Source: Geothrix limicola
GTDB lineage: Bacteria; Acidobacteriota; Holophagae; Holophagales; Holophagaceae
Length of the DNA: 64,000 bases
NCBI RefSeq assembly: GCF_030268085.1
Contig: NZ_BSDE01000003.1
Span: 248,001-312,000, forward strand
Reading direction: 5' to 3'
Position numbers and translations under genes: made by a program. Numbering within the stretch: the first letter of the stretch is position 1; each line of letters begins with the position of its first letter. This document shows positions 37,026 to 47,351 of this stretch, piece after piece. Below the pieces are notes generated by a model. That model was not told where the DNA came from and made no database searches. It was given only the letters and a program-made list of their open reading frames with translations.

Positions 37026-37913
37026 TCAGTTAAAACCGTGGACGAAGTGCAGGTAGGCGAAGAGGGCGGGCGCGGCGAAGACCAGGCTGTCCACGCGGTC
37101 CAGCAGGCCGCCGTGGCCCGGGATGGAGACGCCGCCGACGTTGGAATCCTTCACGCCCGTGCTGCGCTTCCAGGTGCTTTCCACGAGGTCGCCCAACTGG
37201 CCCACGGTGCCCAGCAGCAGGCCCAGGGCCACCACGTCCACCCAGGTCCATTCGGTGCAGACGGTGGCGCGCATGAGGGCGGCGCCGAGGAGGTTGCCGC
37301 CGAGGTTGCCGAAGGCGCCCTCCCAGCTCTTCTTGGGGCTCACCTTGGGGGCAAGGCGGTGCTTGCCGAAGTAGCTGCCCACGAAGTAGGCGGCGCTATC
37401 GCCGAACCACGTGATGATGAAAAGGGCCAGGATCAGGCGGCTGCCGGTCTTGGGCAGGGTGCCCTGCAGCATGAAGATCTTCTGTTGAAAGCCCAGGCCC
37501 AGGCCCAGGTAGAGGGCGCCGAGCCAGGTGATGGCCTGGCTGGGCAGGGCCTCTTCCAGCTTCTGGTCGAAGAAAAGGGCGCCGAAGTGGATGACCATGG
37601 CCCCCAGGGCCAGCACCAGCCAGAGCGGCAGGGGATCCTGGCTGCCGCTCTGCAGGAAGAAGTGGGCGAGAAGGCCCCAGGTCAGCAGGACGCCGGCGAC
37701 CAGCGAGGGATTGAAGCCCCGGGCCCGAGCCATGAGAGCCATCTCCCGCATGCCCATCAGGGAGGCGAGGGCCATGATGGCCAGGTAGGTGGGCGGGGCC
37801 CAGGACTGGTCGCCGAACCACAGGAGGCTGAAGAAAAAGACGCCGAAAACCAGGGCCGAGGTCACGCGCACGGTCATGTTCCTGGTGTCCACCTTGGGCG
37901 TGGTCCGTTCCAT
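37026..37913 (-). CDS. cdsA: Phosphatidate cytidylyltransferase
   Basis: Inner-membrane enzyme making CDP-diacylglycerol for phospholipid synthesis, 295 residues with about eight membrane helices. The C-terminal signature is present: WFGDSAAYFVGSYFGKH, LAPKVSPKKSWEGAFGNL and STGVKDSNVGGVSIPGHGGLLDRVDSL. The ATG at 37913 shares its A with the uppS stop (TGATG), and the gene ends next to the dxr start, so translation of the operon is tightly coupled. Confidence 0.96.
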   Translation of the reverse strand: MERTTPKVDTRNMTVRVTSALVFGVFFFSLLWFGDQSWAPPTYLAIMALASLMGMREMALMARARGFNPSLVAGVLLTWGLLAHFFLQSGSQDPLPLWLVLALGAMVIHFGALFFDQKLEEALPSQAITWLGALYLGLGLGFQQKIFMLQGTLPKTGSRLILALFIITWFGDSAAYFVGSYFGKHRLAPKVSPKKSWEGAFGNLGGNLLGAALMRATVCTEWTWVDVVALGLLLGTVGQLGDLVESTWKRSTGVKDSNVGGVSIPGHGGLLDRVDSLVFAAPALFAYLHFVHGFN

Positions 37914-38599
37914 CAGATCCCCCCGAAGCGGCGTTCGCGCTGGGCATAGTCCTCGAGCGCGGCTTGCAGTTCCGCGGGGCCAAAATCCGGCCAGAGGAGG
38001 TCGGTCATGTAGAGTTCGGCATAGGCCGACTGCCAGAGCAGGAAGTTGGAGATGCGGTGCTCGCCGCTGGTGCGGATGAGCAGGTCCACATCGGGCACCC
38101 CGGTGGTCCACAGGCGGGCTTCAAGGGCAGCCTCGTCCACCTGGTCGGCCCGGAGGCCGTCCTCGATGCAGCGGCGGGCCGCCTGGGAGAGTTCCAGGCG
38201 CGAGCCGTAGTTGACGGCGAGGTGGAAGGTCATGCCCGTGTTCTTCGCCGTGGCCGCTTCCAGGGCCCGGATGTCCGTGCGGATGCCCGCGGGCATGCCC
38301 TCCAGCGAGCCCAGGTGGTGGAAGCGGATCTGCTTCCGGGTGAGCTGGTGGACGAACATGCGCAGGTACATGCGGAGCAGGGCCATGAGCGCTCCCACTT
38401 CGAGGGCGGGCCGCTTCCAGTTTTCCGTGGAGAAGGCGTAGAGGCTCAGGTGCTGGATGCCCGCATCCGAAGCGGCCTCCAGGATGCGTTCGACCGCCTG
38501 CACTCCGGCCTTGTGCCCCTTGATGCGGGCCTTGCCTCGCTGGGCTGCCCAACGGCCGTTGCCGTCCATGATGATGGCGACATGGGTCGGGATGCTCAT
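37913..38599 (-). CDS. uppS: Undecaprenyl diphosphate synthase (isoprenyl transferase)
   Basis: Makes the C55 lipid carrier for cell-wall precursors, 228 residues. Signature motifs are HVAIIMDGNGRWA at residues 7-19, LYAFSTENWKRP, and the C-terminal DLLIRTSGEHRISNFLLWQSAYAE. GGGGAG lies seven bases before the ATG at 38599. The first codons, including the start and HVAIIM, lie inside a 107-bp tandem repeat, so diverged copies of the gene's 5' end occur directly upstream. First gene of the uppS-cdsA-dxr-rseP operon. Confidence 0.96.
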   Translation of the reverse strand: MSIPTHVAIIMDGNGRWAAQRGKARIKGHKAGVQAVERILEAASDAGIQHLSLYAFSTENWKRPALEVGALMALLRMYLRMFVHQLTRKQIRFHHLGSLEGMPAGIRTDIRALEAATAKNTGMTFHLAVNYGSRLELSQAARRCIEDGLRADQVDEAALEARLWTTGVPDVDLLIRTSGEHRISNFLLWQSAYAELYMTDLLWPDFGPAELQAALEDYAQRERRFGGI

Positions 38600-38818
38600 C
38601 GCGGGCTCCCCGGCTCGGTCTTGCCTGGCCATCCCGCGTGGGCGGCCTCGCGTATGCCCGATGGGCATACCGAGATGATGATGGCGACGTGGGTCGGCAT
38701 CGTCATCGCGCGCTTCCTGGCTGGATGGGGCCGAGTCCTGCCGCGTGGTCGGCCTCGCATACGCCCGACGGGCATACCGAGATGATGATGGCCACTTGGA
38801 TCGGGACGGTCATCGCGC
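38568..38818. repeat. 107-bp tandem repeat spanning the uppS start region (about 2.3 copies)
   Basis: Units begin at 38568, 38675 and 38782, exactly 107 bases apart, each starting ATGATGATGG; the third is partial and fades near 38818. Units 1 and 2 both end with a segment holding the palindromes TATGCCCGATGGGCATA or its TACGCCCGACGGGCATA variant, followed by CCGAG. On the minus strand each unit contains an ATG followed by a diverged copy of the uppS N-terminal codons (PTHVAII). This and unremarkable sequence up to 38941 make up the 343 bases without a gene between uppS and the GTPase-kinase gene; promoters for both directions must lie here. Confidence 0.85.
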
Positions 38819-38941: not shown

Positions 38942-41323
38942 ATGGTTCAGTTTAATACCCGTGCCAATGAGATCCTGCTCAAGCTGGTCTATTACGGGCC
39001 AGGTCTGTCGGGAAAGACCACCAATCTGCAATCCCTGCACGCCATGTGCTCGGACACGCAACGGGGCGAGATGTTCTCCGTCAATACGCAGGAGGACCGC
39101 ACCCTCTTCTTCGATCTGCTGCCCATCAACCTGGGCTACATCTACGGCAACGCCATCCATCTCCAGATCTACACGGTGCCGGGCCAGGTGCAGTACGATG
39201 CCAGCCGGCGCGTGGTGCTCGGTGGGGCCGACGGCGTGGTGTTCGTGGCGGATTCCAGCGAAGCCAAGATGCAGGACAACGTGGACTCGCTGTCGAACCT
39301 CTACCACAACCTCAACGCCAACCGGCTGAACATCAAGCAGATACCCTTCATCATCCAGTACAACAAGCGGGATCTGCCGGACGCCATGGCCGTGGGTGTC
39401 ATGAATCGGCGCCTAAATTTCCGCAGCGTGCCGTACTTCGAATCCGTGGCGAACCGCGGCACCGGCGTGCTGGACACCTTCCTGGCCATCACCCGGGAAA
39501 CGGTGGGCTACACCTTCAAGAAGTACCACCTGGACAAGAAGATCAAGGACTTCGACGAGATGCTTAACCTCATCGAGTCCAACGTGCGCACCAGCATGCG
39601 GGAACTGCCACCTCCCCAGGAGGCGCCCCTGGCCCCGGCGGTGGAATCGACGGTGCTGCGCCACAGCAACGTGAGCGTGGCGGACCTGGTGCCCGGCAAG
39701 GTCGCCGACGCCCAGGATCTGCTGGAAGATGCCCTCAAATCCAACATGGAGACGGCCCGGCTCTATTCGGAGCTGAAGCAGGTCAAGGACACGCTGGAAA
39801 AGAAGAACGAGGAGATGAGCCAGCTCTACACCCAGCTGGACCGGGCGAACCAGGACAACCTGAAGACCCGGAAATACCTGGAGGGCCTCGTCCAGAACAT
39901 CGGCGAAGCGGTCATCTCCTATGCGCCGGATGGCAAGATCCTCACCTGGAACACTGCCGCGGAACGCATCTTCGGATACTCCCGCCCCGAGATCGTCGGC
40001 CGCAGCATGGCCCAGCTGACCCCGGATAACCTCCTGGGCGAACTGGACCAGGTGGCCCAGCAGGTGGGCCGCGGCCAGGTGGTGCGGGACATGGCCACCA
40101 CCCGGCTGCGCAAGGGGGGGATCGCCTTCCCCGCCAACATCACCTATGCGCCGGTGCGCGGCAACGATGAGCGCGTGCTGGCCTACTCGGCCCTGGTTCG
40201 GGACCTTTCGGAGCAGCGGGATCTGCAGGACCGCCTGGTCCATTCCCAGAAGCACGAGGCCCTGGGCCGCCTGGTTCCCACGCTCTTCCACGAGGCGGCC
40301 AACCGGCTCACGCCCGTGCTGCTCGAATCGCGCCTGATCGCGGAATCCTCCCTGGATCCCCACCAGGCCGAGCAGGCCACCCGCCTCGCCAAGGCCGTGG
40401 ATTCCATCCAGAGCCTGCTGCAGCCCCTGCTCACCGTGCTGAACCCGCCCAGCCCCCGGCCCCTGCCCGCGCAGGTGAATGACCTGGTGCGGGAGGCGGC
40501 GGCCCTGGTGGACGCCAAGGCCCAGCGCATGGGCGTGACGGTCGAACTGAACCTGGACGCCACCCTGCCCGAAACGGCCCTGGATCCCGGCCTGATGGTC
40601 CAGGCCCTCACCAACCTCCTGTTGAACGGACTCCAGGCCATGGCCATGAGCCCCATCAAGCGCCTGAGGGTGGCCACCCGGGCCTCCGGCGAGAACCTCC
40701 AGGTGGTCGTGCAGGACACGGCTCCGGCCCTCGGAGAGGCGTGCCAGGCCGAGCTGTTCGATCCGGCGCAGGCCACGACGACGGAGGCCCTGGGCCTGCC
40801 CATCGCCGACATCATCGCCCGCCAGCATGGCGGCCGCCTGAGTGCCCGCAGCCAGGAGGGCCTGGGGAACGCCTTCCTGCTGGAACTGCCCTGTACGGCC
40901 CTGCCCACACCGCCCGCGGTTCCGGTGGCGCCCATGGGATTGAAGGGGGCCAAGGCCCTGGTGGTGGATGACGAAAGCTTCCTGCTGGAATGCCTCGTGG
41001 ACGCCCTCGGCGCCTGGGGCATGGAGGTGGCGTCGAGCCCCCGCGGCGACGAAGCCATCCAGAAGCTGGAATCCGGCGCCTTCGACGTCATCGTCTCGGA
41101 TATCCGCATGCCGGGCCTTTCGGGCGTCGACCTCTTCGAGTGGCTGAAGGCCCAGCGGCCCGCCATGACGCGGCGGATCCTCTACACGACCGGGGATTCC
41201 TTCGACGCGAAGACGCGGGAATTCCTCGAGGCCAGCCAGGTGCCCTACCTGGGTAAGCCCTTCGATCTAAAGCAGCTCAAGCAAAGTCTCGAGCGTCTCC
41301 TAGAGACTCCGGTCGAGGCGTGA
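38942..41323 (+). CDS. MglA-like GTPase fused to PAS, histidine-kinase and receiver domains
   Basis: A 793-residue fusion. Residues 1-200 are an MglA-type small GTPase: P-loop GPGLSGKTTN (19-28), R53 in EDRTLFF and Q82 in TVPGQ (the MglA pattern with Thr in place of the usual Asp), and NKRD (141-144). A probable coiled coil (260-310) leads to a PAS domain (311-425), a HisKA-like helix pair with H450 in LFHEAANRL, a HATPase (510-650) whose first glycine box is degenerate (QDTAPALG), and a receiver domain with D676/D677, D720 in SDIRMPG and K772. MglA controls cell polarity and motility in known bacteria. This layout suggests GTPase state gating phospho-signalling; that is inference. Confidence 0.88.
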   Translation: MVQFNTRANEILLKLVYYGPGLSGKTTNLQSLHAMCSDTQRGEMFSVNTQEDRTLFFDLLPINLGYIYGNAIHLQIYTVPGQVQYDASRRVVLGGADGVVFVADSSEAKMQDNVDSLSNLYHNLNANRLNIKQIPFIIQYNKRDLPDAMAVGVMNRRLNFRSVPYFESVANRGTGVLDTFLAITRETVGYTFKKYHLDKKIKDFDEMLNLIESNVRTSMRELPPPQEAPLAPAVESTVLRHSNVSVADLVPGKVADAQDLLEDALKSNMETARLYSELKQVKDTLEKKNEEMSQLYTQLDRANQDNLKTRKYLEGLVQNIGEAVISYAPDGKILTWNTAAERIFGYSRPEIVGRSMAQLTPDNLLGELDQVAQQVGRGQVVRDMATTRLRKGGIAFPANITYAPVRGNDERVLAYSALVRDLSEQRDLQDRLVHSQKHEALGRLVPTLFHEAANRLTPVLLESRLIAESSLDPHQAEQATRLAKAVDSIQSLLQPLLTVLNPPSPRPLPAQVNDLVREAAALVDAKAQRMGVTVELNLDATLPETALDPGLMVQALTNLLLNGLQAMAMSPIKRLRVATRASGENLQVVVQDTAPALGEACQAELFDPAQATTTEALGLPIADIIARQHGGRLSARSQEGLGNAFLLELPCTALPTPPAVPVAPMGLKGAKALVVDDESFLLECLVDALGAWGMEVASSPRGDEAIQKLESGAFDVIVSDIRMPGLSGVDLFEWLKAQRPAMTRRILYTTGDSFDAKTREFLEASQVPYLGKPFDLKQLKQSLERLLETPVEA

Positions 41324-41381: not shown

Positions 41382-42497
41382 ATGCAGCGAAGTTGGGTCA
41401 TGGCCGCCATCGTGGCCTCGGGCCTTCTGGCCCAGACACCCCCTCCTGAACCAAAGCCCGCCCCGGTCCAGGCCCCAGAAACCGCCACCAAGCCCGTCGA
41501 ATCGCCGATGGCGCCCCAGGCGGAGACGCCGAAACCCGCAGTTCCGGTTGTGGAGGCCAAGCCCTTCGAGCAGCTCCGCCCCACCCAGCGCAAGCTGGCC
41601 TACACCCTGCGTCGCGCCGCGCTGTCCGCCCACGAGCTGGGCTTCTACCGCAGCCATCCCCGGGCCATCGAAGTGCGCGACGGGCTGGAGGCGCTGCTGA
41701 AGGCCAAGGTCGATATCCCCGCGAAGGCTTCGGCCGCCTTGCCGGCGGTGGAAGCCTACCTGGCGAAGTTCAACGCCAACCATGGTTTCTACGACACTGA
41801 AGGGAAGAAAATTCTGCTCGAGTCCACCTGGAAGGACCTCCAGGCCGCCGCCCGCGGCGCGGCCAAGACCGGCCCCAAGGGCCTGGAGCCCCGCCTCGCG
41901 AAGGTGAAGGGCCTGCTCTTTGACGCCAAGGTGGATGCCACGGCGCCCAGCTGGGCGGAGCCCGAAGCCCCTGCCAAGGGCAAGAAGGCCAAGGCGAAGG
42001 GACCCAAGGCCCCCGAAGGCTTCGCCACCCAGAAGGCCATCACGGCCCTCTGGGTGAAGCGCGCCCAGGAGTGGATCGCCGTGACGCCGCAGGAGACCGA
42101 GGTCAAGGGCGAGAAGAAGACCCGCCGCCTGCCCGATCCCGTCCAGACCAAGGCCCTGAAGGACCTGGCGGCCTGGCTGGACAAGGAGGACCTGGACCTG
42201 CTGCGCGATCCCGCCTTCGGCTGGCTGGACCTGCGCCGCCTCGGCGCCATGCCCGGCGCCACCCTGATGGCCAAGGCCGGAGACATCGCCGCCTCCAAGG
42301 CCCCGGAAGGCCCCGCAGGTGAGCTGACCCTGCTGCCTGCGCTGGAACCCGTGATGGGGGAGAGCAAATTCGCCAAGGGTGACGAGAAGCGCGCCGTGCT
42401 CGCCGACGCGAAGCAGGGAGCCCCCGCCGCTACCCTCGCCGAGCAGTGCGCCGCCTTCGAGGCGCTGGCCCGCAGCCGGGATTTCGAGGTCAAGTAG
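41382..42497 (+). CDS. Secreted Ala/Lys/Pro-rich protein, weakly M49-peptidase-like, unknown
   Basis: A 371-residue protein with a signal peptide ending SGLLAQTP, then a Pro/Glu/Ala-rich linker (about 20-65). A helical part follows, with KLAYTLRRAALSAHELGFYR, AIEVRDGLEALL and YLAKFNANHGFYD. The order of these elements recalls the N-terminal part of dipeptidyl-peptidase III (M49), but the HEXXGH zinc motif and the rest of that enzyme are absent, so it is not a peptidase by sequence. The 200-225 region is a Lys/Ala low-complexity stretch. A strong terminator follows. Function unknown. Confidence 0.6.
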   Translation: MQRSWVMAAIVASGLLAQTPPPEPKPAPVQAPETATKPVESPMAPQAETPKPAVPVVEAKPFEQLRPTQRKLAYTLRRAALSAHELGFYRSHPRAIEVRDGLEALLKAKVDIPAKASAALPAVEAYLAKFNANHGFYDTEGKKILLESTWKDLQAAARGAAKTGPKGLEPRLAKVKGLLFDAKVDATAPSWAEPEAPAKGKKAKAKGPKAPEGFATQKAITALWVKRAQEWIAVTPQETEVKGEKKTRRLPDPVQTKALKDLAAWLDKEDLDLLRDPAFGWLDLRRLGAMPGATLMAKAGDIAASKAPEGPAGELTLLPALEPVMGESKFAKGDEKRAVLADAKQGAPAATLAEQCAAFEALARSRDFEVK

Positions 42498-45325: not shown

Positions 45326-45366
45326 CTTGAAGATCATGTTGACAATCCCGCCATCCCCCCTATCCT
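45326..45366 (+). promoter_or_regulatory. dnaK promoter
   Basis: TTGACA at 45339-45344 and TATCCT at 45361-45366, 16 bases apart, form a housekeeping-type promoter 50 bases before the dnaK start. CTTGAA (45326) with CCCGCCAT (45347-45354) also resembles a heat-shock sigma-32 promoter. CTTGAAG followed seven bases later by TGACAAT partly matches the HAIR operator of HspR (CTTGAGT-N7-ACTCAAG) in its left arm only. Confidence 0.5.
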
Positions 45367-45415
45367 AGGAATTCCAGGGGGGCGAAGCCTCGACCTGGCC
45401 CCCAGGAGGCACGAC

Positions 45416-47311
<1,896 letters not shown>

Positions 47312-47325
47312 CCAAGGCACGAAAC

Positions 47326-47351
47326 GGGGAGCCTGCGGGCTCCCCATTTTT
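47326..47351 (+). terminator. Terminator after dnaK
   Basis: GGGGAGCC (47326-47333), loop TGCG and GGCTCCCC (47338-47345) form an 8-bp stem followed by ATTTTT. It lies 14 bases after the stop and 37 bases before dnaJ, so dnaJ-hspR may be expressed by readthrough or from a separate promoter. Confidence 0.85.

Follow-up and report, generated by a model that had tools for sequence, protein, structure and literature searches.

In the 64,000-nucleotide stretch of Geothrix limicola DNA analysed here (the window), a single gene joins an MglA-type GTPase to a linker, a coiled coil, a PAS domain, a histidine kinase core (DHp and CA domains) with a degraded ATP site, and a receiver (REC) domain (Table 1). 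Judged from its motifs, the kinase core, taken by itself, is very probably a kinase-dead pseudokinase. The best reading, drawn by analogy with known proteins, is a RomR-like receiver input acting in cis on MglA, combined with a DivL-like reversed flow of signal. Tentatively, and with slightly less than even confidence, we propose a single chain in which a receiver and a PAS domain, read by a kinase-dead histidine kinase fold, would directly control a Ras-like polarity GTPase, with the flow from kinase to effector reversed.

Table 1. Features of the fusion gene, its neighbours and three related fusions. Coordinates are window positions unless a locus is named.
Feature	Residues	Coordinates	Strand	Basis
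Whole fusion gene, MglA - linker - coiled coil - PAS - DHp - CA (putative pseudokinase) - REC		38942..41323	+	ORF, Pfam, AlphaFold, orthologues
MglA-type GTPase domain	1-195	38942..39526	+	matches to solved MglA, orthologue alignment
Variable linker	196-262	39527..39727	+	orthologue alignment, AlphaFold
Conserved connector helix / coiled coil	263-319	39728..39898	+	alignment, AlphaFold
PAS domain	313-428	39878..40225	+	Pfam, AlphaFold
DHp-like two-helix domain, H450-E451-x-x-N454	429-505	40226..40456	+	alignment, AlphaFold
H450 codon, within DHp-like domain	450	40289-40291	+	
N454 codon, within DHp-like domain	454	40301-40303	+	
CA (HATPase) domain, degraded ATP site	506-655	40457..40906	+	alignments, genome comparison
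Receiver domain	670-788	40949..41305	+	Pfam, alignment
D720 codon, within receiver domain	720	41099-41101	+	
uppS (undecaprenyl diphosphate synthase), divergent neighbour		37913..38668	-	neighbourhood comparison
Conserved downstream ORF, 371 aa, no Pfam family		41382..42497	+	neighbourhood comparison
MglA-GAF-kinase fusion without phospho-His		L239:3344-5530	-	
MglA-GAF-kinase fusion without phospho-His		L244:3279-5459	-	
MglA-GAF-kinase fusion without phospho-His		L051:3776-5947	+	

One open frame conserved throughout Geothrix

The open reading frame begins with ATG and encodes 793 residues without interruption. The initial annotation had described it as a single 793-codon frame holding a GTPase, a coiled coil, PAS, HisKA-like and HATPase domains and a receiver; the frame is indeed free of stops, and the domain set was recovered by Pfam, alignment and AlphaFold. 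Pfam matches, all above cut-off, were obtained for PAS (residues 313-421), HATPase_c (549-651) and Response_reg (673-783), and the Pfam HisKA family gave no match in the fusion protein. The full-length AlphaFold model contains a helix at residues 269-319, a PAS fold, a two-helix DHp (423-468 and 474-500), a CA domain and a REC domain; with a pTM of 0.35 and a pLDDT of about 88 in CA it confirms the folds, the relative placement of the domains being unreliable. The pLDDT falls below 50 over residues 225-272. Foldseek searches with the middle part returned PAS/LOV histidine kinases, ThkA, HK853 and DivL (4q20).

A full-length, stop-free orthologue is present in 33 Geothrix genomes including that of the window, the others being 74-92% identical, and the carriers include G. 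rubra and G. fermentans. Among the 37 same-genus genomes searched, contig ends truncate two further copies, and two genomes are without the fusion. An origin of the fusion in a frameshift or an assembly join, for which the initial annotation had pointed to codons 200-310, was practically ruled out: the same frame is open in the 33 Geothrix genomes and in other genera with the gene order kept, and we found nothing in support of an artefact. Within Geothrix, dN/dS was well below 1 for each domain (MglA 0.05, coiled coil 0.17, DHp 0.19, PAS 0.22, REC 0.23, CA 0.37), so that the strongest constraint lies on the MglA domain and CA is the fastest-evolving folded part.

The N-terminal domain is an MglA-type GTPase

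Residues 5-186 match M. xanthus MglA (6h17/6hjh/5ymx; E about 1e-56, about 49% identity) and T. thermophilus MglA (E 3e-49), and Foldseek placed the N-terminus on MglA 6izw with a TM-score of 0.87 by target length. Alignment bore out the motif positions given in the initial annotation, namely the P-loop GPGLSGKT (19-26), the intrinsic arginine R53, the TVPGQ G3 motif (T78-Q82) and NKRD (141-144); these are shared with M. xanthus and T. thermophilus MglA, as are T54 and D58 of beta2 and the MglB-facing beta2 residues F56/F57. K25, T26, R53, T54, T78, Q82, N141, K142 and D144 were invariant in 59/59 orthologues. The domain thus carries the motifs of the MglA family (P-loop, R53, Gln82, T78 in G3, NKxD), but whereas MglA itself consists of one domain and about 195 residues (150-240 aa in the family), here several more domains follow in a sensor protein of 793 residues. 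The fusion does not adjoin mglB: the genome has one clear mglB, within a separate mglBA operon, and none was found among the gene neighbours of the fusion.

The kinase core has lost its ATP-binding motifs

H450 belongs to an H-box, FHEAAN, that aligns with ZraS, and this phospho-accepting position is His in 33/33 Geothrix orthologues. The ATP-binding boxes of a HisKA-type kinase (N, G1 as DxGxG, G2 as GxGxG) are not retained: G1 reads DTAPAL (592-597), and G2 is a remnant, TTEALGL, without GTG. Aligned to ADP-bound ZraS, DTAPAL stands in place of DSGKGI and two residues are deleted at GTGLGL. In all 33 Geothrix orthologues the second G1 glycine is absent (replaced by A/P/V/L/E/Q) and G2 is reduced to xxALGL with the leading GTG gone; this glycine and the GTG are missing in 51/51 aligned Holophagaceae DHp/CA sequences. 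A loose G2 pattern scores a few sequences by chance, and aligned positions were used instead; at these, no Holophagaceae sequence had an intact GTG. The Mg-binding Asn of the N-box varies within Geothrix (N 29, S 2, H 1, Y 1; n=33). When 50 of the other HATPase domains of the genome were sampled (the 30 best-scoring and 20 of the next tier, a choice skewed to higher scores), both G boxes were intact in 50/50; the HATPase of the fusion ranks near the bottom by score of the 102 in the genome. This degradation had escaped the initial annotation. ATP may bind without the canonical G boxes.

Conservation of the receiver, H450 and N454

The receiver carries an acidic pair, the phospho-accepting Asp, a Thr and a Lys (D676, D677, D720, T750, K772), all invariant in 46/46 REC-bearing orthologues. 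In 11 of these, from sister lineages, H450 is replaced by Asn with all five REC residues intact, and in a REC-less Holophagaceae subclade the position is occupied by Asp or Thr. N454, four residues past the H-box position, is present in all 46 REC-bearing proteins and lost together with H450 in five REC-less Holophagaceae proteins, a co-occurrence with REC that rests on two REC-less lineages within the alignment. The invariance of H450 in Geothrix suggests that the His retains some role there.

In M. xanthus CrdS, H371, E372 and N375 occupy the same positions; E372 is needed for the kinase activity only, N375 for the phosphatase activity only, and H371A keeps most of the phosphatase activity (PMC3510030). 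The pattern in the DHp domain is suggestive of a kinase-minus, phosphatase- or binding-competent module that would work with its own receiver. In the tree the His450-bearing sequences group together (SH-aLRT 99) and the outgroup root nests them inside Asn-bearing lineages. Either the His was regained or a long branch has drawn the root to the wrong place, and the tree cannot decide the ancestral state.

Distribution, shorter relatives and gene neighbourhood

A scan of one genome per species (84,980 species) confined the orthologues to Holophagae, where they occur in Holophagaceae, in one Holophagales MAG and in Acanthopleuribacteraceae (Sulfidibacter corallicola, Acanthopleuribacter pedis); outside Holophagae the same scan gave PAS-level matches only. 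Two contigs, L170 (labelled Deltaproteobacteria, 65% identity) and L173 (labelled Bacillota, 60%), carry Holophagaceae-type orthologues. We rejected them as cases outside Holophagae, as both group with Holophagaceae and are probably misnamed MAGs. In a plasmid search, the best places listed match the PAS-HK part only.

In a second family of the class the orthologue stops after PAS, at about 407 aa; that of the Holophagales MAG stops after PAS too. The Acanthopleuribacteraceae orthologues (about 630 aa) have PAS and a CA fold without the DHp His and without REC, and five Holophagaceae orthologues also have no REC. For these five we rejected a sequencing error: in the four whose contigs extend far enough, the frame ends in a clean stop and the usual downstream gene comes next. 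Since the shorter relatives drop the kinase part, REC or both, MglA-coiled coil-PAS is the constant core across the class, and the kinase part and REC are dispensable.

The gene order is rseP-dxr-cdsA-uppS (divergent), the fusion, the 371-aa ORF, an OmpR-type regulator and a glycosyltransferase. This order is preserved in Geothrix and, for the most part, throughout Holophagaceae, but not in Acanthopleuribacteraceae. The flank formed by uppS with cdsA, dxr and the gene of an rseP-like M50 protease behind it is kept in all Holophagaceae loci examined. In most of them the 371-aa ORF adjoins the fusion, and its product is a possible functional partner. A 107-nt direct repeat (2.3 copies, window 38568-38817) overlaps the 5' end of uppS and extends into the region shared with the upstream side of the fusion; the minus-strand start region of uppS recurs in each of its 36-nt cores, as though the start of uppS had been partly duplicated in tandem. 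Elsewhere in the window, an ORF at 45365-47347 (-) gives a Pfam match to PF10712 ('NAD-specific glutamate dehydrogenase', 1e-154), and the opposite strand encodes Hsp70/DnaK at 45416-47311 (+; 4e-249) followed by DnaJ. PF10712 looks like a spurious antisense Pfam family.

Other MglA fusions in Acidobacteriota

Fusions of MglA to a coiled coil and GAF, HisKA and HATPase domains were found in other Acidobacteriota families (L052, L237-L240, L242, L244), and in a sample of 347 Acidobacteriota genomes MglA matches lie within frames of 700-850 codons in many families. The H, G1 and G2 motifs are intact in L052, L237, L238 and L240. The phospho-His is lost in L239 (His to Ala), in L244 (His to Asn) and in L051, which has no recognisable site, so kinase decay recurs among MglA fusions. 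The GAF-type fusions resemble the present protein in their N-terminal MglA, in the connector-helix motif (ALKSNMETARLYSELK) common to both types and in having a sensor and a kinase core. They differ in carrying GAF for PAS, in that REC was not seen in those read, and in the complete kinase motifs of several members.

Whether the architecture is common thus has two answers: MglA-sensor-kinase fusions recur across Acidobacteriota, whereas the exact order MglA-coiled coil-PAS-pseudokinase-REC was found only in Holophagaceae. In the open-licence literature we found no description of MglA-sensor-kinase fusions and no characterised protein with the present domain order, in line with what the initial annotation had stated. 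The main census of prokaryotic small GTPases excluded MglA sequences longer than 240 aa (PMC4316618), and a whole layer of MglA fusions has in this way stayed outside the standard census. Together, the fusions provide a natural series of kinase decay on one invariant GTPase, from intact motifs (GAF-type) through His only and Asn to the loss of REC.

Comparison with known systems

In Myxococcus, Frz, FrzZ, RomR and MglB are separate proteins that stand between phosphorylation signals and MglA. Both the fusion and RomR have a receiver with a proposed role upstream of an MglA GTPase, but RomR is a separate protein without PAS, DHp or CA. ChpT/Spo0B-type phosphotransferases are recognised by a conserved His with a degenerate CA domain; this combination is present in Geothrix, and in the sister genera residue 450 is Asn with REC retained. 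The state of the RomR phospho-site, D53, alters the frequency of MglA-dependent reversals (PMC3441718).

The Caulobacter protein DivL is a pseudokinase proposed to have been repurposed as a sensor of a phospho-receiver (PMC4211667). It shares with the fusion a PAS-DHp-CA fold; the core of DivL is without kinase function, and in the fusion such a loss is indicated at the level of motifs. In DivL the N, G1, F and G2 boxes are intact and Tyr stands in place of His, whereas the fusion lost G1 and G2 and keeps the His in Geothrix; it also has a receiver in cis and an attached GTPase.

The actinobacterial conservons likewise pair an MglA-type GTPase with a histidine kinase protein (CvnA kinase, CvnB MglB-like, CvnD MglA-like; PMC13343842, PMC4316618), and the kinase CvnA8, a partner of an MglA-type GTPase, autophosphorylates (PMC13343842). 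Conservons are composed of separate subunits in one four-gene operon (HK, MglB-like, CvnC, MglA-like) with, in CvnA8, an active kinase, whereas the fusion has lost its kinase motifs, has no adjacent MglB gene and differs in its neighbours.

Proposed signal flow and alternatives

With marginally more than even confidence, we favour a reading based on the pattern of conservation, in which a dimeric PAS-pseudokinase-receiver module would determine, in cis, the activity or location of the MglA-type GTPase. The DHp domain and the coiled coil would dimerise the protein, other kinases or small phosphodonors would phosphorylate D720, and the kinase-dead DHp/CA unit would read the phosphorylated receiver and, with N454, may also dephosphorylate it. 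PAS ligand and receiver phosphorylation would be relayed via the coiled coil to the MglA domain, where they would change the GTP/GDP cycle, the access of MglB or polar placement, and the MglA domain would in turn have type IV pili or another polar machinery as its target. In these steps the two-component part would thus be the input and the GTPase state the output. Since the ATP-binding motifs are lost, signals probably pass from the 'kinase' end to the GTPase switch and not the other way round, the reverse of the direction assumed in the initial annotation; this direction is less certain than the kinase-dead status. With receiver, sensor and GTPase in one family-conserved chain, a single purified protein and its point mutants (D720, N454, H450, R53/Q82) suffice to assay the coupling.

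The initial annotation had suggested that polarity or GTP state could gate phosphotransfer directly; the protein would then be a working hybrid histidine kinase in which the GTP/GDP state of MglA switches autophosphorylation of H450 and transfer to D720. Both residues are invariant in Geothrix, four GAF-type relatives have complete kinase motifs and CvnA8 autophosphorylates, all of which would suit such a kinase. Gating of phosphotransfer by GTP is nevertheless unsupported, because it needs a working kinase: G1 and G2 are lost in all Holophagaceae orthologues, the N-box position varies, CA evolves faster than any other folded part and sister genera are without the His yet have REC. We therefore regard this account as very unlikely. 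A ChpT/Spo0B-like phosphotransfer intermediate, in which H450 would shuttle phosphate between the receiver in cis and another receiver, would suit the Geothrix proteins, where an invariant His in a retained HExxN box lies beside a degraded CA and an intact REC. It is unlikely all the same, as at least 11 orthologues with intact REC have Asn at the His position and a His relay can therefore not be the shared function.

The kinase core might instead serve for dimerisation only and be slowly decaying, in a protein that is essentially MglA-coiled coil-PAS and could dispense with its C-terminal domains. The family that has only these parts and the REC-less proteins described above (Acanthopleuribacteraceae and five Holophagaceae) agree with this idea. 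The CA domain is still under purifying selection (dN/dS 0.37), however, and the active-site residues of REC are invariant wherever it is present, which makes decay quite unlikely as the explanation. For the favoured cis-acting module, an output on the type IV pilus is possible, given that the genome encodes the mglBA operon, two further MglA-like proteins and PilT homologues; at the fusion locus itself no gene-neighbour link to motility was found. Two 1.2 Mb streamlined genomes of one genus in the family (G222 and G347, genus code g19) gave no MglA match at an E cut-off of 1e-30, whereas nearly all other sampled genomes of the family do have such matches. The two further MglA-like proteins of the window's genome (L056:4411-5289 (-) and L034:1501-2874 (+); frames of 296 and 475 aa) have long acidic/proline-rich C-terminal tails that end in a short conserved-looking segment, and similar tails recur at the Acidobacteriota loci L071, L075 and L252.
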